From assembly GCF_900109925.1 (NCBI RefSeq), contig NZ_FOBW01000027.1, positions 1 through 32,724 on the forward strand: DNA of 32,724 bases, given 5' to 3'. Shown here in pieces: positions 5,036 through 28,743 of the stretch. The stretch's first letter is position 1, and each line of letters opens with the position of its first letter. A program made the translations under genes and the position numbers. This DNA is from Mesobacillus persicus. GTDB lineage: Bacteria; Bacillota; Bacilli; Bacillales; Cytobacillaceae. Under the pieces are notes generated by a model. The model was given only the letters and a program-made list of their open reading frames with translations, was not told the DNA's origin and searched no databases.

Positions 5036-5090
5036 GACTAATAGATGTGAAACAGGGAATGAAAAAAGAGAATACAGTCCCCACTCACAA

Positions 5091-5163
5091 TCTGCGTAGT
5101 CAAGCTCTTTACGGTAGCTCGGTAGAAACTTATGGGCCATATCCCCAAGATTATACGACGATA
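5091..5163 (-). ncRNA. Guanine-sensing purine riboswitch aptamer of pbuG
   Basis: The minus strand has the purine aptamer core: GTATAATC, GGATATGGC, AGTTTCTACC, CCGTAAA and GACTACG in the right order and spacing. The cytosine in the last junction (GACTACG) is the residue that pairs with the ligand and marks guanine rather than adenine specificity. The P1 helix looks imperfect (ATC..CG with CG..GAT). Ligand binding is expected to favour the downstream terminator and switch pbuG off when guanine is plentiful. Confidence 0.95.
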
Positions 5164-5189
5164 TTGTGGTTATTTATTATGTTGTCTTA

Positions 5190-5279: not shown

Positions 5280-6833
5280 CTACTCCCACTCAATCGTTGC
5301 TGGTGGTTTGCTAGTGATATCATAAACAACACGATTAATATGTTGGACTTCATTCACAATCCTCGTAGAAATCACTTCAAGCACGTCCCAAGGAATTCTC
5401 GCCCAGTCAGAGGTCATTCCATCAATGGACGTAACCGCACGAATGCCAATGGTATAGTCATAGGTTCTAGCATCGCCCATAACCCCAACGCTACGGATAT
5501 CAGGCAAGACAGTAAAGTACTGCCAGATATCCCGATCCAGTCCGGCTTTGATAATCTCTTCCCTTAAAATAGCATCCGATTCTCGAACGATTTCTAACTT
5601 TTCTTCACTGATTGCCCCTAGAACACGAATACCAAGACCTGGACCAGGGAACGGTTGACGCCAAACAATTTCATCTGGAATTCCTAGTTCCGTACCAAGC
5701 GCCCTTACTTCGTCCTTAAACAGAGTGTTTAACGGCTCAATTAACTTAAATTGCATATCTTCTGGAAGGCCACCGACATTATGGTGAGATTTAATTGTTT
5801 GCGCCGTTGCAGTACCACTTTCAATAATATCGGTATATAATGTCCCTTGCGCTAGGAAGTCTATCCCTTCAAGCTTTGTAGCTTCATCATCAAAAACATA
5901 GATAAACTCGTTCCCTATGATTTTCCGCTTTTTCTCTGGATCAGATACTCCCTCTAACTTGCTGAGGAATCGGTCCTTTGCATCGACTTTAATGACATTC
6001 ATATTGAAGCCTTCAGAAAAAGTTTTCATTACTCCTTCTGCTTCGCCCTTACGAAGTAAACCATGATCAACGAATATACAGGTTAGCTGATCACCGATCG
6101 CTTTATGGATCAGAACAGCGACAACAGAAGAATCCACGCCACCACTTAAAGCACAAAGCACTTTTTTGTCGCCAACTTCTTGACGAATTTTCGCAATTTC
6201 AACTTCAATAAAGTTTTCCATCGACCAGTTACCGGTACATTCACACACTTTAAAGACAAAGTTTTTTAGTAAATCCGTTCCGTAAACAGAATGGCGAACT
6301 TCAGGATGGAATTGAACAGCATATAATCCGCGGCTCACATCACTCATCGCCGAGATTGGGCAGGAAGGATTTACCCCATCAACCTGGAATCCAGGAGGCG
6401 CTTCTGTCACTAAATCTCCATGGCTCATCCAAACAGTCTGTTCCTTTGGGGTTTCACTAAAAAGCGGACTCTCATTTTGCAGGGTTAATAGAGCCTTCCC
6501 ATATTCTCGATTTTTCGCCGGCTCTACTTTGCCACCAAAGTGCATAGTCATTAATTGCATTCCGTAGCAAATCCCTAGAATCGGAAGACCTAGCTCGAAG
6601 ATCTCTTCGTCACAGCGAAACGACCCATCATCATAGACACTATTCGGACCACCTGAAAAGATGATCCCTTTTGGATTCATTTTTTTTATTTCCTCTGCCG
6701 TTATCGTGTGCGGATGAAGTTCACTGTAGACGCCGAACTCCCTGATTCTCCTTGTAATTAGCTGATTGTATTGACTACCAAAGTCCAATACAACAATCTT
6801 TTCTTGGTCCTGAACATCCATATTCTCTGCCAC
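5280..6833 (-). CDS. guaA: GMP synthase (glutamine-hydrolysing)
   Basis: GuaA converts XMP to GMP with ATP and glutamine, the last step of guanine nucleotide synthesis, in the cytoplasm. The N-terminal class I glutamine amidotransferase domain shows [15 protein letters not shown], the nucleophile motif GICYGMQ and the histidine-glutamate motif VQFHPEV. The ATP pyrophosphatase domain starts with the PP-loop [11 protein letters not shown], and the C-terminal dimerisation domain ends in the typical [11 protein letters not shown]. The frame runs to a GTG at 6842. The GTG at 6831-6833 was chosen because GGGGTGA lies just upstream; the ATG at 6819-6821, which would give 513 residues like B. subtilis GuaA as I recall it, is an alternative. 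The guanine riboswitch in the leader suggests feedback by guanine. Confidence 0.96.
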
Positions 6834-6916
6834 ACTGGTCACCCCAATTAATAAAATTGTATTTAGATCTTAATCTAATATCACCTTTAAACAAAGACTT
6901 CTTTCGTAAAGATTGT

Positions 6917-7107: not shown

Positions 7108-7127
7108 TTAGGTTGTTCCGAATATTC

Positions 7128-7205
7128 TCTGCCTTCATAGTCAAATCATTTACGGTGATTTGGTAGAAACTTTCGATCCCTATTATCGATGTTATACGAA
7201 GGTGT
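7128..7205 (-). ncRNA. Guanine-sensing purine riboswitch aptamer of guaA
   Basis: The minus strand reads CCTTCGTATAAC, then ATCGATAATAGGGATCGA (P2), AGTTTCTACC, AAATCACCGTAAATGATTT (P3) and GACTATGAAGG. P1 is well paired (CCTTCGT with ATGAAGG). The cytosine in GACTATG indicates guanine specificity. It precedes guaA on the same strand. Bound guanine should free the terminator and lower GMP synthase expression. Confidence 0.95.
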
Positions 7206-7226
7206 ATACTATTAAATTACTAGAAC

Positions 7227-11878: not shown

Positions 11879-13351
11879 TTAGAACCAGTTAATCGGTTCC
11901 GGCTTAAGGTTATGGAATATATGCTTAGTCTCGGTATATTCTTCTATCCCTAGTTTCCCTAGTTCGCGTCCAATCCCAGACTGTTTAAATCCACCCCATG
12001 GTGCATGTGGGAAGTAAAGGTTGAAGTCATTAATCCAAACCGTACCCATGCGCATCTTTGCTACACAGCGCTCAGCTTTTACAATATCGTTTGTCCAAAC
12101 CCCACCGGCAAGTCCGTAGATTGAGTCATTCGCAAGCTTTACTGCTTCCTCTTCTGTACGGAATTTCTCAACTGTGATAATAGGGCCAAATGCTTCATCT
12201 TGAACAATACTCATTTCTGTTGTGCAGTCTGTGAAAATAGTAGGTAGGTAGAAAAACCCATTTTGCAGTTCCGGATCTTCTGGACGCTTACCACCGACTG
12301 CTAATGTCGCCCCTTCTTTAATGCCTGCTTCTACATACTTTTCGACTTTCGCAAGGTGCTCAGCTGAAATAAGCGGGCCCATTTGTGTGTCTTCGTCAAA
12401 TCCGCTTCCTAGTTTGAATTTTTTCACTCGCTCAACAAGTGCGTGAACGAACTCATCGTGGATGCTTTCTTCTACAATTAGTCTTGTCCCTGCTGAACAA
12501 ATTTGTCCTGCATGGAAGAATACCCCGTTTAATGCTTGGTCAACAGCTGTCTCAAAATCAGCATCTGCAAAGATGATGTTCGGATTTTTCCCACCAAGTT
12601 CAAGTGCAAGCTTCTTTACATTGCTGCTAGCCGCTTGCATAATTTTCTTCCCAGTAACAAGTCCACCTGTAAAGGAAATAAGATCGACATCAACGTTACT
12701 AGCTAACTCTGCACCAACTGTATGACCCGCTCCAAGGACTAGGTTTGCAACGCCAGCAGGCACCCCTGCCTCTGCCATTAGTTCGAATACTTTTATCGTA
12801 GTAAGTGGTGTGATTTCACTCGGCTTCATCACTAGTGTGTTACCTGTAGCTAAGGCTGGAGCCAATTTCCACGATGCTTGTAGCAATGGGTAATTCCATG
12901 GGGTAATTTGACCGCACACTCCTACCGGTTCGCGAACGACCTTACTGATTGAGTTCGCTACTGGAGAATCAATCAATTCCCCGCCATCTTTATCTGCAAG
13001 CTCTGCATAATAACGAAATACGCCAGCAATATCATCCATGTCTCCACGGCTTTCTTCTACTGTTTTACCAGTATCTAAAGATTCTAATCTAGCAAGTTCT
13101 TCTTTATCTCTTTCGATTAATTCAGCAATTTTCCTAACAATCATCCCTCGCTGGGTAGCTGGAGTAGAAGACCATTCTCCGTTATCAAATGCTGCTCTTG
13201 CAGCAGCAATGGCCGCTTTTGTATCTGATTCATCACTCTCTGGTACGGTCGCAATAATCTCCTGATTGAAGGGATTAATAATCTCACGCGTATTACCTGA
13301 AATTGCTCCTACCCATTTGCCATTAATGTATTGTTGTTGGTTTAGACCCAA
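11879..13351 (-). CDS. gbsA: Betaine-aldehyde dehydrogenase GbsA
   Basis: GbsA oxidises glycine betaine aldehyde to the osmoprotectant glycine betaine with NAD(P)+, the second step from choline. The ~490-residue protein is a full aldehyde dehydrogenase with the N-terminal INPF motif, ITPWNYPLLQASWKLAPAL, the glutamate motif ALELGGKNPNIIF and the catalytic cysteine at residue 285 in FFHAGQICSAGTRL. FTGGLVTGKKIM matches the GbsA/BetB cofactor loop. The start is TTG at 13349-13351, 9 bases after GGAG; a TTG at 13360 abuts the ribosome binding site. The gene is divergent from gbsR, and a palindrome lies just downstream of its promoter. No gbsB-type alcohol dehydrogenase follows; betA elsewhere in the island can supply the first step. 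Confidence 0.96.
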   Translation of the reverse strand: MGLNQQQYINGKWVGAISGNTREIINPFNQEIIATVPESDESDTKAAIAAARAAFDNGEWSSTPATQRGMIVRKIAELIERDKEELARLESLDTGKTVEESRGDMDDIAGVFRYYAELADKDGGELIDSPVANSISKVVREPVGVCGQITPWNYPLLQASWKLAPALATGNTLVMKPSEITPLTTIKVFELMAEAGVPAGVANLVLGAGHTVGAELASNVDVDLISFTGGLVTGKKIMQAASSNVKKLALELGGKNPNIIFADADFETAVDQALNGVFFHAGQICSAGTRLIVEESIHDEFVHALVERVKKFKLGSGFDEDTQMGPLISAEHLAKVEKYVEAGIKEGATLAVGGKRPEDPELQNGFFYLPTIFTDCTTEMSIVQDEAFGPIITVEKFRTEEEAVKLANDSIYGLAGGVWTNDIVKAERCVAKMRMGTVWINDFNLYFPHAPWGGFKQSGIGRELGKLGIEEYTETKHIFHNLKPEPINWF

Positions 13352-13386
13352 ATCTATCAACTCCAGTTTTTATGTAAATTAAGTTT

Positions 13387-13404
13387 GTTAAAAATTTATT
13401 TAAC
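13387..13404. promoter_or_regulatory. Candidate GbsR operator at gbsA
   Basis: The sequence GTTAAAAATTTATTTAAC fits GTTAA-N8-TTAAC. It lies at about +3 to +20 of the predicted gbsA transcript, where a bound repressor would block initiation or elongation. It matches the copy at the binding-protein gene at 15 of 18 positions. GbsR binding is inferred from position and recurrence. Confidence 0.6.
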
Positions 13405-13413
13405 TTTTTAAAA

Positions 13414-13442
13414 ATAGTAACATGTCTTTATTAGGCTGTCAA
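13414..13442 (-). promoter_or_regulatory. Predicted promoter of gbsA
   Basis: The minus strand has TTGACA (13437-13442), a 17-base spacer and TACTAT (13414-13419), with TGT directly before the -10 as an extended -10 element. The candidate operator begins about 10 bases downstream of the -10. Confidence 0.82.
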
Positions 13443-13547
13443 AAATAAAGGTAAAGCACAAAATTTTAGAAGGATTAAAATCAGCTAGAATGCCTGAGCC
13501 TACTGTGTTAATGGACATTTGCATTTAGTTAAAACCAAGTTTTCCAT

Positions 13548-13575
13548 TTGACATTTAATCTGAACACGGTATCAT
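13548..13575 (+). promoter_or_regulatory. Predicted promoter of gbsR
   Basis: TTGACA (13548-13553), a 16-base spacer and TATCAT (13570-13575) lie about 65 bases before the gbsR ATG. A weaker palindrome ending in TTTAAC (13592-13609) lies at about +10, so autoregulation is possible. Confidence 0.7.
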
Positions 13576-13639
13576 AAAGTTTGTGAAGAAGATTTAATAA
13601 ATATTTAACGCGCTTTACTTTAGATGAAGGAGCGACTTT

Positions 13640-14191
13640 ATGAGTGATTCTACTGAAAGATCGAGAACTAAAATAGAAGAAGCCAAGGATAAAGTCATTG
13701 GCGCCATCGCCGAGACAATGGACTTATATGGTGTAACACCAGCTGCTGCAAATTTATATGCGACAATGTACTTTAAAGATCAGATGACTCTTGATGAAAT
13801 GCGTACTGAGCTCGGAATGAGTAAACCTAGTATGAGTACTAGTGTCCGTAAGCTTCAAGAAATCGAAATGGTGAAAAAAACATTTACACGCGGTTCTAGA
13901 AAACATACCTATGTAGCTGAGAAAAATTTCTTTCGCTCCTTTATGGTATTTTATTGCCAGATGTGGGAACGCGAAATAAAGATGAATATGGAAGCAGTTG
14001 AGGAAGCACAAGAAGATTTTATCAATGTCATTAAAGATTCCACTAGTACACCAGAGATAGTTGCAGAAGCAAAACAATATTACGATCAACTAGAAGAATC
14101 TAAAAAATACTATCATTGGTTGGAAGACTTGGTAGCAAGCATTAAGAGTGGGAAAATATTCGAATTTCTACCTAAAGATCAACAAGATTAA
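13640..14191 (+). CDS. gbsR: GbsR/MarR-type transcriptional repressor of choline/betaine genes
   Basis: This 183-residue cytoplasmic regulator has a winged helix-turn-helix (about residues 25-90: YGVTPAAANLYATMYFKDQMTLDEMRTELGMSKPSMSTSVRKLQEIEMVKK) followed by an amphipathic helical C-terminal half likely to form the dimer and effector site. In B. subtilis GbsR represses gbsAB and choline uptake and is relieved by choline. ATG follows AAGGAG at about 7 bases. The gene is divergent from gbsA and lies directly before an OpuAC-type gene. Recurrent palindromes at the neighbouring promoters are candidate binding sites. Confidence 0.93.
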   Translation: MSDSTERSRTKIEEAKDKVIGAIAETMDLYGVTPAAANLYATMYFKDQMTLDEMRTELGMSKPSMSTSVRKLQEIEMVKKTFTRGSRKHTYVAEKNFFRSFMVFYCQMWEREIKMNMEAVEEAQEDFINVIKDSTSTPEIVAEAKQYYDQLEESKKYYHWLEDLVASIKSGKIFEFLPKDQQD

Positions 14192-14207
14192 TTGAAAGTG
14201 ATTTAAT

Positions 14208-14242
14208 TAGATAGTCTATAGAGGATGGCTATAGACTATCTA
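14208..14242. repeat. Perfect 14-base inverted repeat after gbsR
   Basis: The arms TAGATAGTCTATAG (14208-14221) and CTATAGACTATCTA (14229-14242) are perfect, with a 7-base loop. No T-run follows on either strand, so it is either a Rho-independent terminator without its tail, a transcript-stabilising hairpin or a protein site. It ends immediately before the predicted -35 of the next gene. Confidence 0.75.
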
Positions 14243-14245
14243 CTA

Positions 14246-14274
14246 TTGAATATAGTACTTACCTCTTCTAGATA
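14246..14274 (+). promoter_or_regulatory. Predicted promoter of the OpuAC-type gene
   Basis: TTGAAT (14246-14251), a 17-base spacer and TAGATA (14269-14274). The match is moderate. A GTTAA-N8-TTAAC palindrome lies about 25 bases downstream of the -10, the same relative layout as at gbsA and betA. Confidence 0.5.
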
Positions 14275-14299
14275 AGGGTTAGGTTCGTTTAATGTTCTT

Positions 14300-14317
14300 G
14301 TTAAAAATATTCTTAAC
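14300..14317. promoter_or_regulatory. Candidate GbsR operator at the OpuAC-type gene
   Basis: The sequence GTTAAAAATATTCTTAAC fits GTTAA-N8-TTAAC and lies about +19 to +36 of the predicted transcript. It shares 15 of 18 bases with the gbsA copy and with the copy at 18084. Confidence 0.6.
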
Positions 14318-14389
14318 GTACTTAATATTTCTTAATGTTATGGGTATTTTTAATTTAATTACATAATAAACAAAGGGGAGTTTTTCTAC

Positions 14390-15277
14390 ATGAACAAATG
14401 GAAAAAAGAACTTAGTATACTATTCGTAATGCTAATGGTTGCTGTATTAACAGCATGCGGAAGCAGTAATGCGGAAACAAACGGGGAACAATCAGGGGGA
14501 AGTGACCAAGAAATAACTATTGGTCAAATTAACTGGGCTGAAAACATTGCAGTCACAAATATGTGGAAAGCGCTTTTAGAGGATAAAGGTTATAAAGTGA
14601 GTTTAAGCAATTTGAACATGGGAGCTACGATGAAAGCTTTAGAAAGTGGCAGCCTGGATGCTAGTTTAGAAATATGGTTACCAGTTCAAGATGCTGTTTA
14701 CTTGGAGAAATTTAATGAGACTGTTAATTTCTCAGAGGCTACTTGGTTTGATCAGGCAAAAGTAGGACTGGTTGTCCCAACCTATCTAGAAGATATTAAT
14801 AGTGTCGAAGACTTAAATGAACATAAAGAACTGTTTAATGGAGAAATTATCGGTTTTGATCCTGGCGCAGGTACGATGGAAGTTACGGAACAATTAATTA
14901 AAGATTATAATCTTGAGTTTGAACTAGTATCGAGCTCTGAACCTGCGATGTTATCTGAGATTGGAAAAGCAGTAGAAAATGGTGCACCGATTGTGTCACC
15001 ACTTTGGAGTCCTCACTCTGTATTCTCCAAATATGACTTGAAGTTCCTAGAAGATCCTCAGAACACATTTGGTGGTGTAGAGAAGATTCACCATGCTACA
15101 AGACTTGGATTCGAGGAAGATTACCCAGAAGTGAGTGAATGGTTGAAAAATTGGAAGATGGATGACCAACAAATTGGCCAGCTTATCGACTATGTAGAAA
15201 GTGCTGAAGACCCTCTTGAGGGCGCTAAGAAATGGATTGAAGAAAATCAAGACTTAGTTAATGAATGGGTAAAATAA
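14390..15277 (+). CDS. Glycine betaine/choline-type ABC transporter substrate-binding lipoprotein (OpuAC family), orphan
   Basis: The 295-residue protein starts with a lipoprotein signal ending in LTAC with the lipidated cysteine at residue 23, so it should sit on the outer face of the membrane. An OpuAC-type betaine-binding domain follows (about 45-290), with tryptophans typical of the aromatic ligand cage (INWAENIAV, EIWLPVQ, SPLWSPHSVF) and the FDPGAGTMEVTEQLIKDY segment. ATG follows GGGGAG at about 9 bases. No ATPase or permease gene is adjacent, so it must work with a transporter encoded elsewhere. Its place beside gbsR, with the shared palindrome in its leader, suggests a ligand of the choline/betaine group; which one cannot be read from the sequence. 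Confidence 0.9.
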   Translation: MNKWKKELSILFVMLMVAVLTACGSSNAETNGEQSGGSDQEITIGQINWAENIAVTNMWKALLEDKGYKVSLSNLNMGATMKALESGSLDASLEIWLPVQDAVYLEKFNETVNFSEATWFDQAKVGLVVPTYLEDINSVEDLNEHKELFNGEIIGFDPGAGTMEVTEQLIKDYNLEFELVSSSEPAMLSEIGKAVENGAPIVSPLWSPHSVFSKYDLKFLEDPQNTFGGVEKIHHATRLGFEEDYPEVSEWLKNWKMDDQQIGQLIDYVESAEDPLEGAKKWIEENQDLVNEWVK

Positions 15278-15301
15278 AGACTTAGATGAATGATAAGGCA
15301 G

Positions 15302-15338
15302 AAGCTAGGCCCTCCTTTTTGGAGGGCCTAGCTTTTTT
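15302..15338 (+). terminator. Intrinsic terminator of the OpuAC-type gene
   Basis: A 14-base perfect stem, AAGCTAGGCCCTCC / GGAGGGCCTAGCTT, with loop TTTTT and a T-run after it, starts about 25 bases after the stop codon. Confidence 0.96.
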
Positions 15339-15357
15339 AAATTTGGATCTGTTATAT

Positions 15358-15480
15358 GCGGTTATTAGCTGCCATTCAGGAACTTCTCGCACCCTGTTTA
15401 TTCACGGGGGAGTCGGTCTTGATAAAACTCACTTAATGCACGTGATAGGGCAACTGCGGGTATGCGCCAGCTCCAACGCC
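15358..15480 (+). pseudogene. Degenerate dnaA fragment (Walker A region)
   Basis: The frame beginning GCG GTT encodes LFIHGGVGLDKTHLMHVIGQ (15394-15453). This matches the DnaA P-loop segment LFIYGGVGLGKTHLMHAIG with only a few changes. Upstream AV and downstream NA also align at DnaA spacing, and a stop follows at 15481. The catalytic glycine before the P-loop lysine is replaced by aspartate, no ribosome binding site or start is seen, and the rest of dnaA is missing. It is a relic of a DnaA-like gene, more G+C-rich than its surroundings, placed straight after a terminator. It has no predicted function. Confidence 0.72.
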
Positions 15481-15483
15481 TAG

Positions 15484-15845
15484 GCAGTATTTAACTGAAA
15501 GGTTTTAATAAAAGACAGTTTGTATTTATTAAGGTTGATCAAGAAAGACAGTCGACTCTGTCTCGTAAGGGGAAAATCTACAACACATCTATCTAGTGAA
15601 GATGGTTTCTTACTAGATTCCCCCTCCTTTTCATCTTAATCAGGCTTATGAAGATGATTTCTTGCTATTTCATCTTCATCAACCGCCGAGGAGGCTACTT
15701 TTATTAATTCCCCTTTGGTTTTATTCATTAATGGGTAGAAGGATTCTCAAAAGGTACATCTACTAGTGCGTTTATATATAAGAAACTTTAACTCAAAATA
15801 TATGTTAAAACTCTTCTCGGAGGTTTTCTGAAGTTATTCCTAAAC
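15484..15845. other. Intergenic region rich in inverted repeats, with a possible small ORF
   Basis: No recognisable gene is present. Several inverted repeats occur: AGACAG/CTGTCT (15546-15563); two overlapping alternatives sharing TAGAT, namely GGGGAAAATCTA (15569-15580) with TAGATTCCCC (15614-15623) and ATCTAGT (15591-15597) with ACTAGAT (15612-15618); and ATGAAGATGA/TCATCTTCAT (15648-15679). A 30-codon minus-strand frame (15636-15728, starting MNKTKGELIK) lacks a clear ribosome binding site and is not called as a gene. The region may be the residue of decayed genes together with the dnaA fragment. Confidence 0.45.
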
Positions 15846-15915
15846 CAAAAAGAGAAGGTACTCTTTCATTAAATGTATGCTTTATACAGCCTATACATTT
15901 AAAAGAGTCCTTCTC
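15846..15915 (-). terminator. Long-stem terminator of betA
   Basis: On the minus strand GAGAAGG-ACTCTTT (15902-15915) pairs with AAAGAGT-CCTTCTC (15852-15866), and inside it ATACATTTAA pairs with TTAAATGTAT, giving about 24 pairs with a small bulge and a 14-base loop. CTTTTTGG follows. It starts about 20 bases after the betA stop. The stem is roughly twice the usual terminator length. Confidence 0.85.
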
Positions 15916-15936
15916 AGAGAAACATATTTATTTGAC

Positions 15937-17634
15937 TTATGCTTTTACTGTGGATTTTACTGTGCCTGCGTCAGCTGGATGTACCCCATGACGATAGAAA
16001 TCGGCATGAATTGGCTCAAGCGGTTTCTGTCCAAGGATGATATCCGCTGCTTTTTCCGCCAACATCAACACTGGTGCATGAATATTGCCGTTCGTGACAT
16101 ATGGCATGGCAGACGCATCAACCACTCGAACATTCTCGAGCCCATGAACCTTCATGGTTAACGGATCTACGACAGCCATTGGGTCTGTTGCCGGCCCCAT
16201 TTTTGCCGTACAACTAGGATGAAGTGCAGTTTCAGCATCTTTTGCTACCCAGTCTAAAATTTCCTCGTCTGTACGAACGGAAGGACCCGGTGAGAGTTCT
16301 CCAGAATTAAACGGTGCCATAGCTGGCTGAGACATGATTTCACGTGATATTTTTACCGCTTCAATCCACTCACGTCGGTCCTGTTCAGTAGAAAGATAGT
16401 TGTAAACCATGCTCGGATGCTCTTTAGGGTCTGTTGAACGAATCTTTAATGACCCGCGCGCATCAGAGTACATTGGTCCAACGTGCACCTGGAATCCGTG
16501 CTTGGTCTCCGCCTTTTTACCATCGTACCGTACAGCCAAAGGCAGGAAGTGGAACATCAAGTTTGGATAGGCAACGTCCTCGTTCGAACGAACAAAACCT
16601 CCACCTTCAAAATGGTTTGTTGCTGCTGGGCCTGTGCGTCCGAACATCCACTGCAAACCAATCCATGGCATTTTCACTTTGTTTAAGTTAGGCTGCTGAG
16701 AAACTGGTTGTGGACATGCGTATTGAATGTAGGCTTCGAGGTGATCCTGTAGGTTTTCTCCTACACCTGGAAGATCAACTATAGGTTTTATACCAAGAGA
16801 ACGCAAGTGTTCAGCATCGCCTACACCTGACAGTTGTAGTAATTGCGGCGTATTGATCGCACCACCAGCGAGTATCACTTCCCCCGCAATAATCTGATGA
16901 GTTTTCCCATCACGCTGATAGGTCACACCGCTTGCTCGGGTACCATCGAAATCGATACTTGTAACAAACGCACGAGTCTTCACCGTTAGGTTTTCTCGCT
17001 CCATAGCTGGATGTAGATAGGCACGTGAAGGTCCAAACCGTTGGCCTTTATATACATGCTTATCGAACGGACCGAATCCCTCTTGTCGAAAACCGTTTAC
17101 ATCAGGAGTTCTTGAATAGCCAGCCTCGACAGCTGCGTCAAAGAAGGCTTGGAATAAAGGATTAGTAGCTGGTCCGCGTTCCAATTTAAGAGGACCATCA
17201 TGACCACGAAGCTCATCATCTGGGTCCGAAGCTAAAGCATTTTCCATGCGCTTAAAATATGGAAGACAGTGTGCAAAGTCCCACGTATCCATACCAGCGT
17301 CTGCTCCCCAACGTTCATAGTCTAGCGGATTGCCTCGTTGGAAAATCATGCCGTTAATTGAGCCCGAACCTCCGAGCACCTTTCCCCGAGCATGCTTAAT
17401 ACGGCGGCCATTCATATATGGTTCTGGGTCAGATTGATATCTCCAGTCGTATAAAGCCTTCCCAGCCGGGAACGGCAATGCAGCCGGCATTTGAATCAAA
17501 AGGTCCCATGAAAAATCCTTACGTCCTGCTTCTAATACTAGAACACTACGTTTCCCATCTGCGCTTAGACGATCGCCGAGTACAGAACCCGCACTACCGC
17601 CACCTACGATAACAATGTCATATGTTTCTTTCAT
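15937..17634 (-). CDS. betA: Choline dehydrogenase, GMC oxidoreductase family
   Basis: The enzyme oxidises choline to betaine aldehyde, feeding GbsA. The 565-residue FAD protein has the N-terminal dinucleotide fold ([19 protein letters not shown], then VLVLEAG), the GMC signature [20 protein letters not shown], the second signature [16 protein letters not shown], and the active-site region [10 protein letters not shown] with the partner [19 protein letters not shown] near the C-terminus. BetA-type residues around HPSC support choline over other alcohols, but substrate is inferred. ATG follows AGGAGG at 8 bases. The leader is about 340 bases long, with a predicted promoter at 17981-18009 and candidate GbsR sites. 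It replaces the GbsB-type alcohol dehydrogenase expected beside gbsA in B. subtilis. Confidence 0.93.
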
Positions 17635-17639
17635 CTTTC

Positions 17640-17975
17640 CTACCTCCTATGATGTTGAAAAAAGAATTTTAGTGATTAAACCAATATGATAGGCTCTCAA
17701 ATACTTTTCAGAAAATTGATGCCAGTTTAATAATTTGCTAGCTTTTTATATTTAAAGTCATTTAAACTAGTCGCTTTGGCCTGAGTCCTGTTAGGTATAT
17801 GTACTTTTCTAATCGGAATTTCCTTAAATTCCAACATAATCCAGACTTTAAATCCACCCATAGCCTACGCTCAAAAGGGACGATGCTTTTTTCCGGAATG
17901 GGCCACAACTCATTTCCAGTGATAACCATCCCTCTTTTGTTAATTTCGTTAAATTTTTATTTAATAAAATTAACA
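17640..17975 (-). other. Long, possibly structured betA leader
   Basis: Between the predicted betA promoter and the ATG lie about 340 transcribed bases without a credible ORF. On the minus strand an outer stem (AAAAGAGGGA from 17929-17938 with TCCCTTTT from 17873-17880, two-base bulge) encloses GGAAATG/CATTCC (17911-17917 with 17895-17900). No T-run terminator is visible. It could be a regulatory RNA or just untranslated leader; no known riboswitch class was recognised. Confidence 0.4.
17948..17965. promoter_or_regulatory. Candidate GbsR operator at betA, promoter-proximal
   Basis: The sequence GTTAAATTTTTATTTAAT matches the gbsA copy at 15 of 18 positions, with the last base of the palindrome changed (TTAAT). 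It lies at about +9 to +26 of the predicted betA transcript, the same place as in gbsA. High A+T content makes single copies weak evidence. Confidence 0.5.
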
Positions 17976-17980
17976 TTCTT

Positions 17981-18009
17981 AATATAACACAGTGGTTTTT
18001 TTTTGTAAA
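17981..18009 (-). promoter_or_regulatory. Predicted promoter of betA
   Basis: The minus strand has TTTACA (18004-18009), a 17-base spacer and TATATT (17981-17986). Candidate operators lie on both sides of it. Confidence 0.7.
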
Positions 18010-18079
18010 CCGAAAACCCCATCTATACTCACTTATATATTTTTTATAACTCCTTACGGAATGATTTAGTTTTGAATTC

Positions 18080-18105
18080 ATTGGTTAAATTTATACTTAA
18101 CCAAT
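18080..18105. promoter_or_regulatory. Candidate GbsR operator upstream of the betA promoter
   Basis: A perfect palindrome ATTGGTTAA-N8-TTAACCAAT whose core (18084-18101) fits GTTAA-N8-TTAAC and shares 15 of 18 bases with the copy at 14300. It is flanked by two copies of TTTTGAATTCA, about 42 bases apart. It lies some 75 bases upstream of the betA -35 and is the most symmetric copy. Confidence 0.6.
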
Positions 18106-18301: not shown

Positions 18302-18994
18302 CTATATAAGGGAATAACTTTTAGGTGGTTCAACCTTTGAGATATTTTTGACCACACCCTTTTCAATCAGAACTGTACGATCTGCTAATGCAGCTGCATC
18401 TACTTGGTCGTGGGTGACAAAAATAGATGTACTTTTTGTTTGTTTTAGAATTTGCTTTAGTTCATCTCTAATTTTCATTTGGAGACTTGCATCTAGATTG
18501 CTGAAAGGTTCATCAAAAAGTAATAGAGAAGGTGCAGGAGCTAAAGCCCGTGCAAGTGCCACCCTTTGCTGTTGTCCCCCACTTAGTTCATACGGGTAAC
18601 GTTTTTTATAATCTAAAAGGTTCACTAGCTCTAACATTTCTTCTATGCGTTTCTGCTTTTGCTTGCTCGTCATATGACGAAGACCAAACTTAATATTATT
18701 TTCAACCGTCATATGCGGAAAAAGAGCATAGTCTTGAAAAACCATCCCTATTCCCCTTTTCTCTGGTGGAATGAAAGTATGGTCATCCACCATTTTTTGA
18801 CCATTAATTATAATCATCCCAGACTTAGGTGTTTCTAATCCTGCGAGTAGTCTTAGGATTGTACTTTTCCCACTACCGCTTTCACCCAGAATTGCAATGA
18901 TTTCACCTTCATTTAACTGTAGAGAGAAGTTCTTGATAGCTGGCTCACTTGCATTTCTGTATTGATAGACGAGATCTTCAATTTGTACAAACAT
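18302..18994 (-). CDS. fbpC: Iron(III) ABC transporter ATP-binding protein
   Basis: This cytoplasmic ATPase energises the FbpB permease. The 230-residue protein has Walker A GESGSGKSTILRLLAG, Q-loop FQDYALFPHMTVENN, signature LSGGQQQRVALARALA, Walker B SLLLFDEPFSNLD and the switch histidine in ISIFVTHDQ-type context (SIFVTHDQ). It lacks most of the C-terminal regulatory domain of longer FbpC/PotA-like ATPases, so it is a short version. Its ATG follows the permease stop codon directly (TAGATG). With the upstream binding protein and permease this is a complete importer; ferric iron specificity follows from the Fur sites and the FbpA-type binding protein. Confidence 0.92.
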   Translation of the reverse strand: MFVQIEDLVYQYRNASEPAIKNFSLQLNEGEIIAILGESGSGKSTILRLLAGLETPKSGMIIINGQKMVDDHTFIPPEKRGIGMVFQDYALFPHMTVENNIKFGLRHMTSKQKQKRIEEMLELVNLLDYKKRYPYELSGGQQQRVALARALAPAPSLLLFDEPFSNLDASLQMKIRDELKQILKQTKSTSIFVTHDQVDAAALADRTVLIEKGVVKNISKVEPPKSYSLI

Positions 18995-20638
18995 CTAATT
19001 TGCCTCCCCTCGATCAAGTACTTTATGAAAAATAAAAATACAAATTCCGCTAATTAAAATGATTAACAACGATGCAGATGCAGCTTCACTGATCATCTCG
19101 TCATTTGCATAGCGAAAAGCTCTTGTAGCTAACGTCTGGAAATTAAATGGCTGAAGCAACATTGTTAATGGTAATTCTTTTAAAATATCAACGAAAACAA
19201 GAATAAACCCACCAATGATGGCCCCTTTAACCATAGGAATATCTACTTTTAAAAAAGTACGAAATGTTGATAAACCAAGAGTTCTTGATGCTTCTGTAAA
19301 AGTGGTACCGACTTTTTCAAAACCGGCTTCAATTGAATTATAACCGACTGCTAAGAAACGAATCACATAAGCTGAAATCAGCATCACGATACTCGTGCGC
19401 AATACAAAGGTTGTATCAATACTAAACAACTTAAATAGAGACCCAAGATTGCGGTCTATCATTAGAAAAATTGTAATTACACCGATTGCTATAACTGCAC
19501 CAGGCACAGAATATCCTAAAACTGTCACCCTTGCGAAAAATTTAGGTAATAACCCCTGATGAATACGTGAGTAATTAGCTATGATTAACCCTACAATAAC
19601 AATGATTAATGCAGCAACTGAAGCAGCAAAAAAGGAGTTTTTGACTAGTGTATAAAATTCTGCTGTTAGGATTCTCTCATATGTCATTAACATCCAAAAG
19701 ATTAATTGTACAAATGGGATAAGAAATGCAAGACTAAAAATAGTGAAACAATAACTAAAAGCAATCCAGGCTTTTACTCCTTTTAATTGTTTAGGCTGAA
19801 TAGGTCTAATCTTGGTTGTAGAATAGCTAAATTGCTTTCGACCACGTATGACTCTTTCAATCACTAATATGAAAATAACAACGACCATCAATGTTCCTGC
19901 TAATTTAAAGGCAGATTCCCTATCCCCCATTGCAAACCAAGTTTGAAAGATCGATGTAATAAATGTTTGGATGCCATAATATTTTACAACCCCATAATCA
20001 TTAATTACCTCTAACATAACAATTGTAGCGCTGCCAACGATAGCGGTTTTGGAAATAGGCAGCACCACTCTAACAAATGTTTCAAAAGAATTTGCTCCTA
20101 GCAATCGAGCATTTTCAATAATTGAAGAAGATTGGTTTTCTATAAAACTCTTTGTAATGACATAAACGTATGGAAAGAGAAACATTGTAAAGATAAAAAT
20201 CGTGCCTTCCATTGACATCATACTGAAATACTTCTGATTTACTTGCAGATCAAATGAATTGCGAAGGGTTGATTGAATAAACCCGGTATAATTGACCATC
20301 CCCTGATAAGTGTATGCGCCAATAAAAGGCGGTATCGCTAGAGGCAAAATCATACCCCATCTAAAAAAATTTCGAAGCGGGAACTTATAAACCGTAATCA
20401 TCCACGCCAAACTGGTACCGATTATGATTGTTGCAACTCCAGTAGAAACTAATAAAATGCTAGTATTATAAAAAATATCAAATAGTAAATATTCTTTTAT
20501 ATGAAACCAATTCTCATTTGGCTCTCCAAAAAAATGAATGGCAATGAGGATATTCGGTAATAGAATAATAACAATAAAAACGAAACTTAATATTGCCCAC
20601 ATATTTATTTGTGTTTTTACTTGTTGAACGAGTTTCAT
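18995..20638 (-). CDS. fbpB: Iron(III) ABC transporter permease, fused two-domain type
   Basis: The 547-residue inner-membrane protein contains two permease domains in tandem, each with about six membrane segments and a binding-protein-dependent transport loop (ENARLLGANSFETFVRVVLPI near residue 180 and EASRTLGLSTFRTFLKVDIPM near residue 460), which contact the ATPase. Two copies of the domain in one chain are typical of FbpB/SfuB iron permeases. The ATG is preceded by AGGGATGTGAAGTC, a modest ribosome binding site. A terminator and a Fur-like site separate it from the binding-protein gene, so it may be partly read-through from fbpA and partly from its own promoter. Confidence 0.92.
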   Translation of the reverse strand: MKLVQQVKTQINMWAILSFVFIVIILLPNILIAIHFFGEPNENWFHIKEYLLFDIFYNTSILLVSTGVATIIIGTSLAWMITVYKFPLRNFFRWGMILPLAIPPFIGAYTYQGMVNYTGFIQSTLRNSFDLQVNQKYFSMMSMEGTIFIFTMFLFPYVYVITKSFIENQSSSIIENARLLGANSFETFVRVVLPISKTAIVGSATIVMLEVINDYGVVKYYGIQTFITSIFQTWFAMGDRESAFKLAGTLMVVVIFILVIERVIRGRKQFSYSTTKIRPIQPKQLKGVKAWIAFSYCFTIFSLAFLIPFVQLIFWMLMTYERILTAEFYTLVKNSFFAASVAALIIVIVGLIIANYSRIHQGLLPKFFARVTVLGYSVPGAVIAIGVITIFLMIDRNLGSLFKLFSIDTTFVLRTSIVMLISAYVIRFLAVGYNSIEAGFEKVGTTFTEASRTLGLSTFRTFLKVDIPMVKGAIIGGFILVFVDILKELPLTMLLQPFNFQTLATRAFRYANDEMISEAASASLLIILISGICIFIFHKVLDRGEAN

Positions 20639-20717
20639 GACTTCACATCCCTACATTAATACCAAAACCATCCGTTGGATTCTTACCAAATATAAGTATA
20701 CAGATGATCTAATTGCA

Positions 20718-20735
20718 AGTGAATATCATTCTCAA
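20718..20735. promoter_or_regulatory. Fur-like site upstream of fbpB
   Basis: The minus strand reads TGAGAATGATATTCACTT, a partial match to the 7-1-7 Fur pattern TGATAAT-N-ATTATCA; the left half is good and the right half weak. Possible promoters TTCACT-17-TATACT and TTGCAA-17-TTATAT overlap it on the minus strand. It could give fbpB-fbpC iron control independent of fbpA. Confidence 0.5.
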
Positions 20736-20740
20736 AATAA

Positions 20741-20772
20741 AAGCTGCACTATAGAAATATATAGTACAGCTT
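20741..20772 (-). terminator. Terminator between fbpA and fbpB
   Basis: AAGCTG-ACTATA and TATAGT-CAGCTT form an imperfect 12-pair stem (20741-20772). On the minus strand it is followed by TTATTTTG. It would reduce fbpB-fbpC expression relative to the binding protein, a common pattern in transporter operons. Confidence 0.8.
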
Positions 20773-20784
20773 CTTTCTAATAAA

Positions 20785-21885
20785 TTATTTCCATCCTACT
20801 TCATTGAATAATTGGATTGCACGTGTATTGTTATCCCCAAGAATAGTTAGGTTTATATCTTGCTCCTTAAACTCACCCCAAGAAGTTAAAGTTTCAGAGA
20901 TGGCTGCTTCTGGATTTACTGGATATTCATTGTTTCCTTCAGCAAATAGTTCTTGTGCTTCTACACTTGTTAGGAATTCAATAAACTTAACCGCATTATC
21001 GACATTCTTTGCATGTTTAACTACTGTAGCACCACTAATGTTAATGTGTGTTCCAGTTGTATCTTGGTTCGGGAAGAAAACTCCCACTTGTTCTCCAACT
21101 TTCACTTCTTCTGAATCAGTAGAGTTTAGTAGTCTTCCAACATAGTAAGTATTAGAAATTGCTACATCGCCTTCTCCAGCAACAACAGCTTTAACTTGGT
21201 CTGTATCTCCACCCTCTGGTGTTCTTGCCATATTAGCTACAATTCCCGCTGCCCAATCTTTGGATGCTTCTTCACCATTTAATTCAATAAATGAAGCTAA
21301 TAGAGATTGGTTATAAATATTTTCTGAAGAACGAATTAGTACACGCTCTTTCCAAGCATCTTCAGTTAATGCTTCATATGTTGAAAGTTCTGAGGGATCA
21401 ACACGATCCTTTGAATAAACAATTACACGAGCTCGTTTTGTTAATCCAAACCAATGATTTTCATCATCACGAAGCTTTTCAGGAATATTAGTTGTTAATA
21501 CGTCACTTTCAATCGCTTGTGTTAGACCATCAGCCTTTAAACGGGCTAGATTACCAGCATCTGCAGTAATGAATATATCTGCCTCTGTAGCTTCTCCTTC
21601 ATCCTTTAAACGCTGAACAAGCTCATCCTTACCTGAGATTACGTTTACCTCAATTCCAGATTGTTCAGTGAATTTTTTATAAAGCTCTTCATCGGTGTCA
21701 TAATGTCTAGTCGTGTATAAGTTTACAACCCCAGCTTCTTCTACTTCAGTTGTTGCTTGTTCTGCTGTTTCCTCTGTTTTTTCTTGTTCTACTGGCTTTT
21801 CTTCACTTGCTTGGTTGCATCCTACTAATCCAAGAACCAAGACAGATAGAAAGAGTGAAAATATTAATACCTTTAAATGCTTCAT
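20785..21885 (-). CDS. fbpA: Iron(III) ABC transporter substrate-binding lipoprotein
   Basis: The 366-residue protein has a lipoprotein signal with the modified cysteine at residue 23 (LVGCNQ), then an acidic Glu-rich linker, then a ferric-binding-protein fold starting VVNLYTTRHYDTDEELYKKFTEQSGIEV. The NTYYVGRLL tyrosine pair is in the position used for iron binding in FbpA/FutA proteins, and FIEFLTSVEAQELFAEGNNEYPVNP is the family's C-terminal signature. ATG is preceded by GGGGGT. A consensus promoter with a Fur box inside it lies upstream, so expression should rise when iron is scarce. Confidence 0.94.
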   Translation of the reverse strand: MKHLKVLIFSLFLSVLVLGLVGCNQASEEKPVEQEKTEETAEQATTEVEEAGVVNLYTTRHYDTDEELYKKFTEQSGIEVNVISGKDELVQRLKDEGEATEADIFITADAGNLARLKADGLTQAIESDVLTTNIPEKLRDDENHWFGLTKRARVIVYSKDRVDPSELSTYEALTEDAWKERVLIRSSENIYNQSLLASFIELNGEEASKDWAAGIVANMARTPEGGDTDQVKAVVAGEGDVAISNTYYVGRLLNSTDSEEVKVGEQVGVFFPNQDTTGTHINISGATVVKHAKNVDNAVKFIEFLTSVEAQELFAEGNNEYPVNPEAAISETLTSWGEFKEQDINLTILGDNNTRAIQLFNEVGWK

Positions 21886-26817: not shown

Positions 26818-28743
26818 ATGATATTATTACAGGTTAACCAATTAACAAAATATTTTGCAGCTGAAATGATTTTATCGAATATTAAATTTGAAATTCAAAC
26901 AAATGACCGGGTTGCACTTGTTGGGAGAAACGGCGCGGGAAAATCAACACTGCTTAAAATTATTGCTGGGCAATCTTCCTATGATAGTGGTGAAATCATA
27001 AAGCCGAAGGGTGTCTCCATCGGTTATTTAGCCCAAAATACTGGACTTGAGTCTGAAAAGTCCATTTGGGATGAAATGCTCACTGTTTTCGATCACCTTC
27101 GTAAAATGGAGAAAGAGCTTCGTAGCTTAGAGGAGAAAATGGCCGATCCAACTGTTTTTTCGGATTCTCCGAAGTACGACAAAGTTTTAAAAGAATATGA
27201 CCATCTTCAGGTGAAATTTAAAGATGAAGGCGGCTACCAATATGAAGCCGATATCCGTTCTGTTTTACATGGACTACATTTTGGATCCTTTGACCATGAT
27301 ACAAAAATTTCAACCTTAAGTGGTGGCCAAAAAACGAGACTCGCTTTAGGAAAACTATTGCTCACACGTCCTGATATCCTAATTTTGGACGAGCCAACCA
27401 ACCACCTTGATATTGATACACTTTCTTGGCTCGAGGGGTACCTACAAGGGTATTCAGGGGCGATTTTAATTGTCTCTCATGACCGGTATTTCCTTGATAA
27501 AGTTGTCAACCAAGTCTATGAGCTTTCACGTCGGAAAATGACTAAGTTTGTCGGAAATTACAGCTCTTATTTAGATCAAAAGGCTGAGAATTACGAGCGC
27601 GAAATGAAACTTTTTGAAAAGCAGCAAGACGAAATCTCTAAGCTTGAAGATTTTGTTCAGCGCAATCTCGCTCGTGCCTCAACAACGAAAAGGGCTCAGA
27701 GCCGACGGAAACAATTGCAGAAAATGGATCGACTAGATCGACCCTCTGGTGATGAAAAATCCGCTTCATTTTCCTTCGAAATTGAACGTCAGAGTGGAAA
27801 TGATGTCCTAAAAGCGGACTCGATTGCTGTTGGTTATGGTTCGGATTCCGTTTCAGAGCAGATCAATTTCCGGATCTCTAGGGGAGATAGTATTGCCCTA
27901 GTTGGACCGAATGGGGTCGGCAAGTCCACATTACTTAAAACAATCGTTAACAAACTCCCTGCACTAGCAGGCTCGATTCATCATGGTTCAAATGTCTCAA
28001 TCGGTTATTATGACCAACAACAGGCAGAACTCAATTCAAATAAAAAAGTCTTAAACGAGTTATGGGATGAATACCCACTTAAACCTGAAAAAGAAATCCG
28101 CACAGTCCTTGGGAACTTTCTATTTTCCGGGGATGATGTTCTAAAAATAGTCTCTTCTTTATCCGGGGGAGAGAAAGCACGGCTTGCCTTAGCGAAACTA
28201 ATGATGGAAAAGGCCAATTTTCTCATCCTCGATGAGCCGACAAACCATTTAGACTTAGATAGCAAAGAGGTTCTTGAAAACGCCTTGATTGATTATCCAG
28301 GAACCATACTATTTGTATCGCATGACCGTTATTTTATTAATCGGATTGCGACGAAAGTCTTCGAACTAGAAAGCACTGGCCTCACTGAGTACCTTGGTGA
28401 TTACGATTATTTTATTGAAAAGAAGCTTGAACAAGAGGAGCTTGAAACGCTAAATGCTCAACTTGCGCCTCAACAGAAAGTTGAAACCGTTGCTTCCGAT
28501 AAAAAGGGATACCAACAAGATAAGGAAGCAAAGAAACTTGAGCGACAGCGTAAGAGACGTATAGAAGAAATTGAATCCTCCATCGAGGGGTTAGAGACAA
28601 AGGCTGCTGAATTAGAAGAGCTCCTCTGTGACCCCGAAATATTTCAGGACCACCAACGAGTCGGTGAGTTAAATGAGCAGTTAGAGAAGACTAAGCATGA
28701 AATTGAACAGCTCATGGATGAGTGGGCTGAGCTTGCAGAATAA
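26818..28743 (+). CDS. ydiF: ABC-F family ATPase YdiF (ribosome-associated)
   Basis: The 641-residue soluble protein has two ATPase domains and no membrane segments, the ABC-F layout. Domain 1 has GRNGAGKST, LSGGQKTRLALGKLL and ILILDEPTNHLDI; domain 2 has GPNGVGKST, LSGGEKARLALAKLM and FLILDEPTNHLDL. The charged linker between them (about 240-320) is the P-site tRNA interaction motif, and the C-terminal ~80 residues form a coiled coil. ABC-F proteins act on stalled or empty ribosomes as translation factors or give antibiotic protection; neither role can be assigned to this copy from sequence. The ATG follows GAGGTGA. TTGCCG-17-TACACT is a possible promoter. Confidence 0.93.
   Translation: MILLQVNQLTKYFAAEMILSNIKFEIQTNDRVALVGRNGAGKSTLLKIIAGQSSYDSGEIIKPKGVSIGYLAQNTGLESEKSIWDEMLTVFDHLRKMEKELRSLEEKMADPTVFSDSPKYDKVLKEYDHLQVKFKDEGGYQYEADIRSVLHGLHFGSFDHDTKISTLSGGQKTRLALGKLLLTRPDILILDEPTNHLDIDTLSWLEGYLQGYSGAILIVSHDRYFLDKVVNQVYELSRRKMTKFVGNYSSYLDQKAENYEREMKLFEKQQDEISKLEDFVQRNLARASTTKRAQSRRKQLQKMDRLDRPSGDEKSASFSFEIERQSGNDVLKADSIAVGYGSDSVSEQINFRISRGDSIALVGPNGVGKSTLLKTIVNKLPALAGSIHHGSNVSIGYYDQQQAELNSNKKVLNELWDEYPLKPEKEIRTVLGNFLFSGDDVLKIVSSLSGGEKARLALAKLMMEKANFLILDEPTNHLDLDSKEVLENALIDYPGTILFVSHDRYFINRIATKVFELESTGLTEYLGDYDYFIEKKLEQEELETLNAQLAPQQKVETVASDKKGYQQDKEAKKLERQRKRRIEEIESSIEGLETKAAELEELLCDPEIFQDHQRVGELNEQLEKTKHEIEQLMDEWAELAE

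Follow-up and report, generated by a model that had tools for sequence, protein, structure and literature searches.

Among the closest described counterparts of the system considered here is the GbsR regulon of Bacillus subtilis, for which passages of the published account (PMC7396694) describe the response of GbsR to choline, its operators at gbsAB and opuB, their conservation within Bacillus, autoregulation of gbsR and repression by a roadblock; mutants and gel shifts characterize the operator there as an inverted AT-rich repeat, placed downstream of the transcription start, whose half-sites are 4 bp apart. In a second account (PMC6207618), passages describe GbsU along with BetA-type enzymes and symporters encoded near gbsR. 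We analyzed a stretch of 32,724 nucleotides from Mesobacillus persicus (contig NZ_FOBW01000027.1, positions 1 to 32,724; hereafter the window), in which copies of the palindrome GTTAA-N8-TTAAC lie around a gbsR gene and genes for the synthesis of the salt protectant glycine betaine. The locus shares with the B. subtilis regulon (gbsAB, opuB) the regulator family, a repeat with 4-bp spacing and, at gbsA and betA by predicted promoters, a site downstream of the start; it differs in that betA, of a type dependent on flavin adenine dinucleotide (FAD), forms a unit of its own with its own operator, and in that gbsU is the transport-linked target. We propose, with considerable confidence, that the window encodes a single GbsR regulon with operator copies at gbsA, at gbsU behind gbsR, and at betA, working by a roadblock that choline would release. 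The regulator and its basic site are thus known, while an extended operator array, a split-off betA with its own operator and a gbsU operator behind RNA hairpins look like new elements: the literature listings and passages covered, figures and supplements aside, contain no earlier account of the extended array or of a gbsU operator behind hairpins, and no rule that a split-off betA has its own operator, and a text search for operator words matched no paper.

The genes follow one another in the order gbsA (minus strand), gbsR (plus), gbsU (plus) and betA (minus), such that gbsR is linked to the betaine-synthesis genes, with gbsA divergent from it and betA 1.7 kb off. The betaine-aldehyde dehydrogenase gene gbsA (11879..13360) scores 721.5 bits against TIGR01804 (cut-off 668.6), the CudC-type MarR repressor gene gbsR (13640..14191) 283.5 bits against NF047500 (cut-off 218), and the FAD choline dehydrogenase gene betA (15937..17634) 852 bits against TIGR01810 (cut-off 732). 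Between the latter two lies a gene for an orphan OpuAC-type binding lipoprotein (14390..15277), which matches PF04069 at 231 bits and TIGR03414 at 138 bits, under the cut-off of 379; we name it gbsU by its position adjoining gbsR, as in passages of PMC6207618. A profile of seven relatives matches Mj223 (PDB 1ku9) with an E-value of 1.2e-15 over profile positions 7-93, and the protein scores 21 bits against Pfam MarR_2, under the 27-bit cut-off. Regulators of the GbsR/CudC family bind choline through an aromatic cage; in the present GbsR, F97, F98 and F101 are invariant across seven aligned proteins.

The initial annotation had listed three exact palindromes and one near copy, and our counts agree: exact copies lie at 13387-13404, 14300-14317 and 18084-18101, as against 0.08 expected from dinucleotide shuffles (0 of 100 shuffles reach three), and a copy with one mismatch lies at 17948-17965. 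With at most one mismatch there are six copies in the window versus 2.04 expected, the two further ones, at 5728 and 27934, falling within the open reading frames (ORFs) 5280-6842 and 26818-28743. A scoring matrix trained on 107 dereplicated sites, with the window excluded and a highest possible score of 39.3, reaches 8 or more in the window only at the four main sites (23.5-38.9 on the better strand) and at one gbsR-proximal site. The gbsA operator (13378..13404, minus strand; score 38.9) consists of the core 13387-13404 and a third half-site TTAA at 13379-13382; the intercistronic gbsU operator (14300..14326, plus strand; score 32.1) has its third half-site TTAA at 14322-14325; and the betA operator (17939..17974, minus strand) spans 36 bp, over which four TTAA half-sites are arranged symmetrically about the core 17948-17965. 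Across the aligned sites the core consensus is GTTAAAT-N4-WTTTAAY-like, an inverted, AT-rich repeat whose half-sites are separated by 4 bp. Because the published B. subtilis operator is matched in both spacer and position, the reading of these sites as GbsR operators is, from the sequence comparisons, strongly supported. The motif was originally called inferred; the operators of B. subtilis gbsAB and opuB, the roadblock and the conservation in Bacillus had already been published (passages of PMC7396694).

We then examined how specifically these sites are placed, using R1, a sequence-only model built from 42 aligned sites of other species. Its top five matches in the organism's own genome are all sites of the window (E-values of 6.7e-5 at gbsA, 7.0e-5 at gbsU, 0.012 and 0.029 on the two strands of the betA site at 17948, and 0.046 at 18084), and the next match elsewhere has an E-value of 0.121. 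Among 193 genomes of the family, R1 finds matches at E<=1.4e-4 in six (G000, G005, G029, G091, G180 and G182), which are exactly the six in which a GbsR of at least 246 bits adjoins gbsA; none of the 187 others has such a match. This co-occurrence is independent for four of the six genomes, since G180 and G091 supplied training sites (as L048 and L060) and G000, G005, G029 and G182 did not.

Comparison of 80 gbsR loci from named genomes (the best 80 of 231), of which at our identity thresholds three lack gbsA, 13 lack gbsU and 22 lack betA, revealed that the sites track the arrangement of the genes. A site with at most one mismatch precedes gbsA in 75 of 77 loci (3.6% in shuffles), and 54 of the 55 gbsA-bearing loci in a more distant set of 58 likewise have the core at this threshold. 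Before betA such a site is found in 19/19 loci where this gene is separate from gbsA and in 0/36 gaps of loci where the two are joined; the sequence of one locus (L096) does not extend upstream of its betA, and two with betA and no gbsA (L081, L105) stand outside both groups. Before gbsU it is present in 44/52 loci in which gbsR and gbsU are at least 139 bp apart and in 0/15 with a gap below 65 bp; the set of gbsU operators used below comprises 43 loci and the window, L126 being left out with its one-mismatch site 199 bp away. In L123, where gbsA stands behind gbsU, gbsA is preceded at 169 bp by a one-mismatch site. A midpoint-rooted GbsR tree implies at least four changes in the arrangement of betA and at least two in that of gbsU; as the presence of the site follows the arrangement across these repeated changes, the operator goes with the transcription unit and not with the gene when operons split. 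The scan of the genome and its relatives that had been proposed at the outset thus speaks strongly for a regulon, through the gbsA sites, the top genome ranks and the six family genomes, and it supports the claim that a single regulon spans gbsA, the binding-protein gene and betA.

Predicted promoters place the operators at gbsA and betA downstream of the start. A sigma-A-like promoter with a TG before the -10 element is found before gbsA (13414..13442, minus strand; TTGACA-17-TACTAT) and before betA (17981..18009, minus strand; TTTACA-17-TATATT), the latter inside the conserved block of 13 aligned leaders discussed below, and gbsR has its own (13548..13575, plus strand; TTGACA-16-TATCAT). Such promoters end 6-19 nt before the core in 77/77 gbsA rows and 15 nt before it in 21/22 betA rows, the exception being the window's own row, which in this set is the 18084 site. 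With gbsA, gbsR and gbsU loci dereplicated and betA loci not, the promoter is at the expected place in 56/56 gbsA loci (window included), 20/21 betA loci and 27/32 gbsR loci, versus 4-6% of shuffles. The roadblock position first suggested for gbsA and betA is therefore supported by predicted promoters, the geometry being the one that passages of PMC7396694 describe as a roadblock for B. subtilis GbsR. The initial annotation put three main sites just after a promoter; this holds for those at 13387 and 17948, but not for the one at 14300: a consensus promoter scan of the window lists none just before it, and promoter-like pairs precede the gbsU site in 2-5% of 40 dereplicated loci (window included) versus 4-10% of shuffles. 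By these predictions, the operator would be downstream of a start at gbsA and betA, and not at gbsU or 18084.

From the directly observed sequence, conservation, promoter geometry and co-occurrence, we infer binding by the GbsR of the window, release by choline, a roadblock, and a block inside the gbsR-gbsU unit. A GbsR operator would thus be carried by each of the three target units in the betaine pathway (gbsA, betA, and gbsU behind gbsR); at gbsA and betA, where the core starts 6-19 nt after the -10 element, bound GbsR would block the initially transcribed region or act as a roadblock, and choline would release GbsR from its operators.

Several observations weigh against this interpretation. 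The bare GTTAA-N8-TTAAC motif is not enriched in the organism's 4.64-Mb genome, where it occurs at 18 places as against 24 for the reversed control, and we rejected genome-wide enrichment of the bare motif on this count; 14 of the 15 copies outside the window fall within ORFs and one is intergenic. The R1 ranking is qualified by the search having scored the best first-look candidates (150 of 6625), and its E-values are rough, in that 30 additional genomes of the family show a match at E<=0.05. A seventh GbsR of this kind (G153, 252 bits) has no gbsA within the 3.5 kb fetched and no strong R1 match, only a one-mismatch site. The relatives are not independent samples, eight of the 52 wide-gap gbsU loci lack a site with at most one mismatch, and the 18084 site lacks outer half-sites and is rarely conserved. 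Identity with the published operator, finally, rests on spacer and position.

The palindrome originally proposed is correct as a core, but the outer TTAA half-sites were missed. Numbering the core as index 0-17 and dereplicating flanks at 80% identity (70% for the R1 model sites), we found a third TTAA, nine bases downstream, at index 22 in 47/50 gbsA, 30/38 gbsU and 17/19 betA loci; at index -8 a TTAA is present in 19/19 betA, 19/50 gbsA and 1/38 gbsU loci. In the full operator as we accordingly describe it, the RTTAA-N8-TTAAY core is joined by a third half-site lying 9 bp downstream; at betA a fourth, placed symmetrically, completes the array TTAA-N5-TTAA-N8-TTAA-N5-TTAA. In 13 aligned, otherwise diverged betA leaders of about 235 bases each, promoter and array are the only strongly conserved block. 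The outer and inner TTAA of the array form pairs centred 21 bp apart, or two helical turns, a spacing that suggests the accommodation of more than one GbsR dimer. The additional half-sites might instead be by-products of AT-rich sequence or of constraints on the leaders and not bound at all: the leaders are indeed AT-rich, the third half-site at gbsA is close to the ribosome site, and a further TTAA at index -17 of the betA loci (13/19) overlaps the -10 element. We regard this as quite improbable, given that TTAA averages 1.4-1.5% at other offsets as against its frequencies at index 22 in three leaders that are unrelated to one another, and in two of these it is well away from a start codon.

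At gbsU, the operator is preceded by potential RNA hairpins. The first, HP1 (14208..14242, plus strand), lies between gbsR and the operator at 14300 and is marked by its fold and by a 12-pair helix with covariation; it is kept in relatives with a separate gbsU. In an alignment of 34 of the 40 gbsU loci, 38 double-changed cells are found versus 11.8 in shuffles (0/500 reach 38), while the count of base pairs that show a double change, eight versus 6.1 expected, is not clearly above them (60/500 reach eight); in all, four of five covariation measures exceed the shuffles, for a structure drawn from the window's row. RNAalifold finds no structure in the gbsR-gbsU alignment, and no Rfam family reaches its gathering score at 14208-14242. 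The second hairpin, HP2 (14255..14286, plus strand), is weaker, precedes a T-rich stretch, and is not listed by the terminator scan of the window, where it is weak. Across loci the sequences moderately support it: it ends 14-22 nt before the operator in 30/40 loci by a longest-stem test and 13-19 nt before it in 24/40 by folding, the linker that follows is T-rich (median 57% T), and it exceeds the 95th shuffle percentile in 15/40 loci versus 8/56 for the same stretch before gbsA operators.

Based on this arrangement, we posit that the gbsU operator most likely stops polymerase arriving from gbsR, so that the block would act between the two genes, behind a hairpin. A different account, in which the site serves a promoter of gbsU itself, either not of the sigma-A type or very weak, and does not block read-through, we hold to be a real if lesser possibility; the hairpins upstream of the operator might do no more than terminate the gbsR transcript, such that gbsU would need its own start, but no sigma-A-like promoter rises above shuffles between the two genes, and in Halobacillus halophilus gbsR and gbsU reportedly form a single operon that responds to choline (Burkhardt 2009, cited in passages of PMC6207618).

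The weaker relative of the palindrome that had been noted after the gbsR promoter is confirmed in that place: it lies at 13592..13609 (plus strand), behind the promoter, with two mismatches and a matrix score of 12.7. The aligned relatives place it in a conserved, degenerate gbsR-proximal class with one half mostly intact; among 72 loci with such a site at three mismatches or fewer, it stands 49-50 bp before gbsR in 41. The class fits the array poorly, with TTAA at index 22 in 7/46 loci and at index -8 in 14/46, and three of the four TTAA letters in 32 and 27 more loci, respectively. With at most one mismatch it is found in 11/15 close-packed loci versus 7/52 wide-gap loci. In the window this candidate autoregulatory operator may give weak autoregulation of gbsR.

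Taking these elements together, we tentatively consider a combined scheme, which we think possible though rather unlikely as a whole, of cooperative multi-dimer GbsR arrays, a choline-gated terminator between gbsR and gbsU, and an either-or control of gbsR that differs by lineage. In its second part, GbsR bound just behind the hairpins would stall polymerase near the end of the terminator hairpin, leaving gbsR made and gbsU off; in its third, lineages would differ in whether they use the internal gate with weak autorepression of gbsR or place a strong operator at the gbsR promoter. If right, the longer array and the gbsR-gbsU site would change the view of a family thought to read DNA as one dimer on one palindrome.

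The far betA site (18084..18101, minus strand; score 23.5, E 0.0455) is an accessory one made up of a strong inner palindrome alone, about 75 bp before the betA -35 element. Its position upstream of the betA promoter agrees with the initial annotation, but the looping considered possible from it is weakly supported. A repression loop between the sites at 17948 and 18084 would accord with both scoring well here and with a similarly placed second site in L047 and L060, the two of 12 aligned relatives that have the far site at no more than one mismatch. We consider such a loop improbable, as the other ten relatives lack the site at this threshold, as it has no outer half-sites, and as the distances to the main site (136 bp here, 129 and 122 bp in L047 and L060) differ by non-whole helical turns. 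In L083 a second one-mismatch copy stands 404 bp from the main betA site. As an alternative role, the 18084 site might block read-through from the transporter genes upstream of betA. These occupy 18302-21885 on the same strand and code for the ATPase, fused permease and binding protein of an ATP-binding cassette (ABC) transporter, whose nearest types are those for 2-aminoethylphosphonate and for other anions or metals, with no matrix match of 8 or more within.

The organism's genome also encodes a second GbsR-type protein (G000:C31:45756-46265, 188 bits). Its gene diverges from an opuA-like operon in which the OpuAC match falls into two pieces, and one of these pieces has a stop in the reading. 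Conceivably, another transcription factor such as this paralogue binds the array; it is present in the same genome, and the B. subtilis OpcR operator is AT-rich too. Passages of PMC7396694 describe the OpcR operator as differing in both its sequence and its spacer, strong matches track the gbsA-gbsR loci, and the 23 paralogue loci adjoining an ABC ATPase gene (L012-L034) hold no exact site and three with one mismatch, whereby we deem this explanation very improbable and retain GbsR as the likely regulator. These 23 loci resemble, by the adjacent ABC ATPase, the OpuAR-controlled opuA system, in which a GbsR-type paralogue adjoins an ABC transporter (passages of PMC6207618), and differ from the present locus in lacking any exact operator copy.

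Other described systems share parts of the arrangement. In six distant loci read as Bacillus, gbsA is preceded by the same core, three copies being exact and three having one mismatch, whereas the third half-site, clear here along with the fourth, is there only TTTA or TTAC. Halobacillus halophilus likewise has divergent gbsA-gbsB and gbsR-gbsU and a BetA-type dehydrogenase (passages of PMC6207618), and the gbsU-side site of a strain of this species (L075) is exact; it differs in that betA follows gbsA in one unit and the gap between them contains no separate operator for betA. The cudTCAB system of Staphylococcus xylosus has the CudC regulator and a BetA-type enzyme in common with the window (passages of PMC6207618), and a BCCT transporter in place of gbsU. 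Among 18 loci read as Staphylococcus, all have an exact core ahead of the aldehyde dehydrogenase gene (18/18) and a third half-site of TTAA (18/18), and one of them has a second site before a BCCT transporter gene.

The resulting description of the GbsR operator is specific and portable across Bacilli, and it points to further candidate members of the regulon: gbsU, sodium symporters, the BCCT transporter and possibly a glycerophosphodiesterase gene. Exact sites occur beside the gbs locus in Pseudalkalibacillus, Alkalihalobacillus and Bacillus sp. (L051:3862, L053:3834, L057:3993, L065:3942, L087:11536 and L091:10762), and in L053, L087 and L091, the three of these that were checked, a gene for a sodium:solute symporter (PF00474) lies about 260-290 bp downstream; it is a candidate choline importer under GbsR control. 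For B. licheniformis and B. megaterium, a symporter in the vicinity of gbsR has already been noted (passages of PMC6207618). In a single genome (G297), one operator match (L256:2798-2827 on C6, E 0.023) lies about 40 bp before a gene for a glycerophosphodiester phosphodiesterase, a type that could release choline from glycerophosphocholine, and another (L257:2827-2856 on C4, E 0.041) about 45 bp before a further OpuAC-type gene, with an SLH-domain gene on its other side. In G329 a weak match in the noise range (L262:2845-2873, E 0.55) precedes an ABC ATPase-CBS gene and then an OpuAC-type gene, a layout that is that of opuB, the second published GbsR target. An R1 match in G005, again a single genome, falls within an ORF. 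In the organism's own genome, the stretches fetched around five BCCT and four out-of-window OpuAC matches give no matrix score of 8 or more; stretches elsewhere that do are on C12 (16.2, within ORFs), C32 (14.7, intergenic and behind a gene) and C19 (9.6). Apart from the regulon, the window contains two purine riboswitches on its minus strand, at 5077-5178 and 7118-7219.

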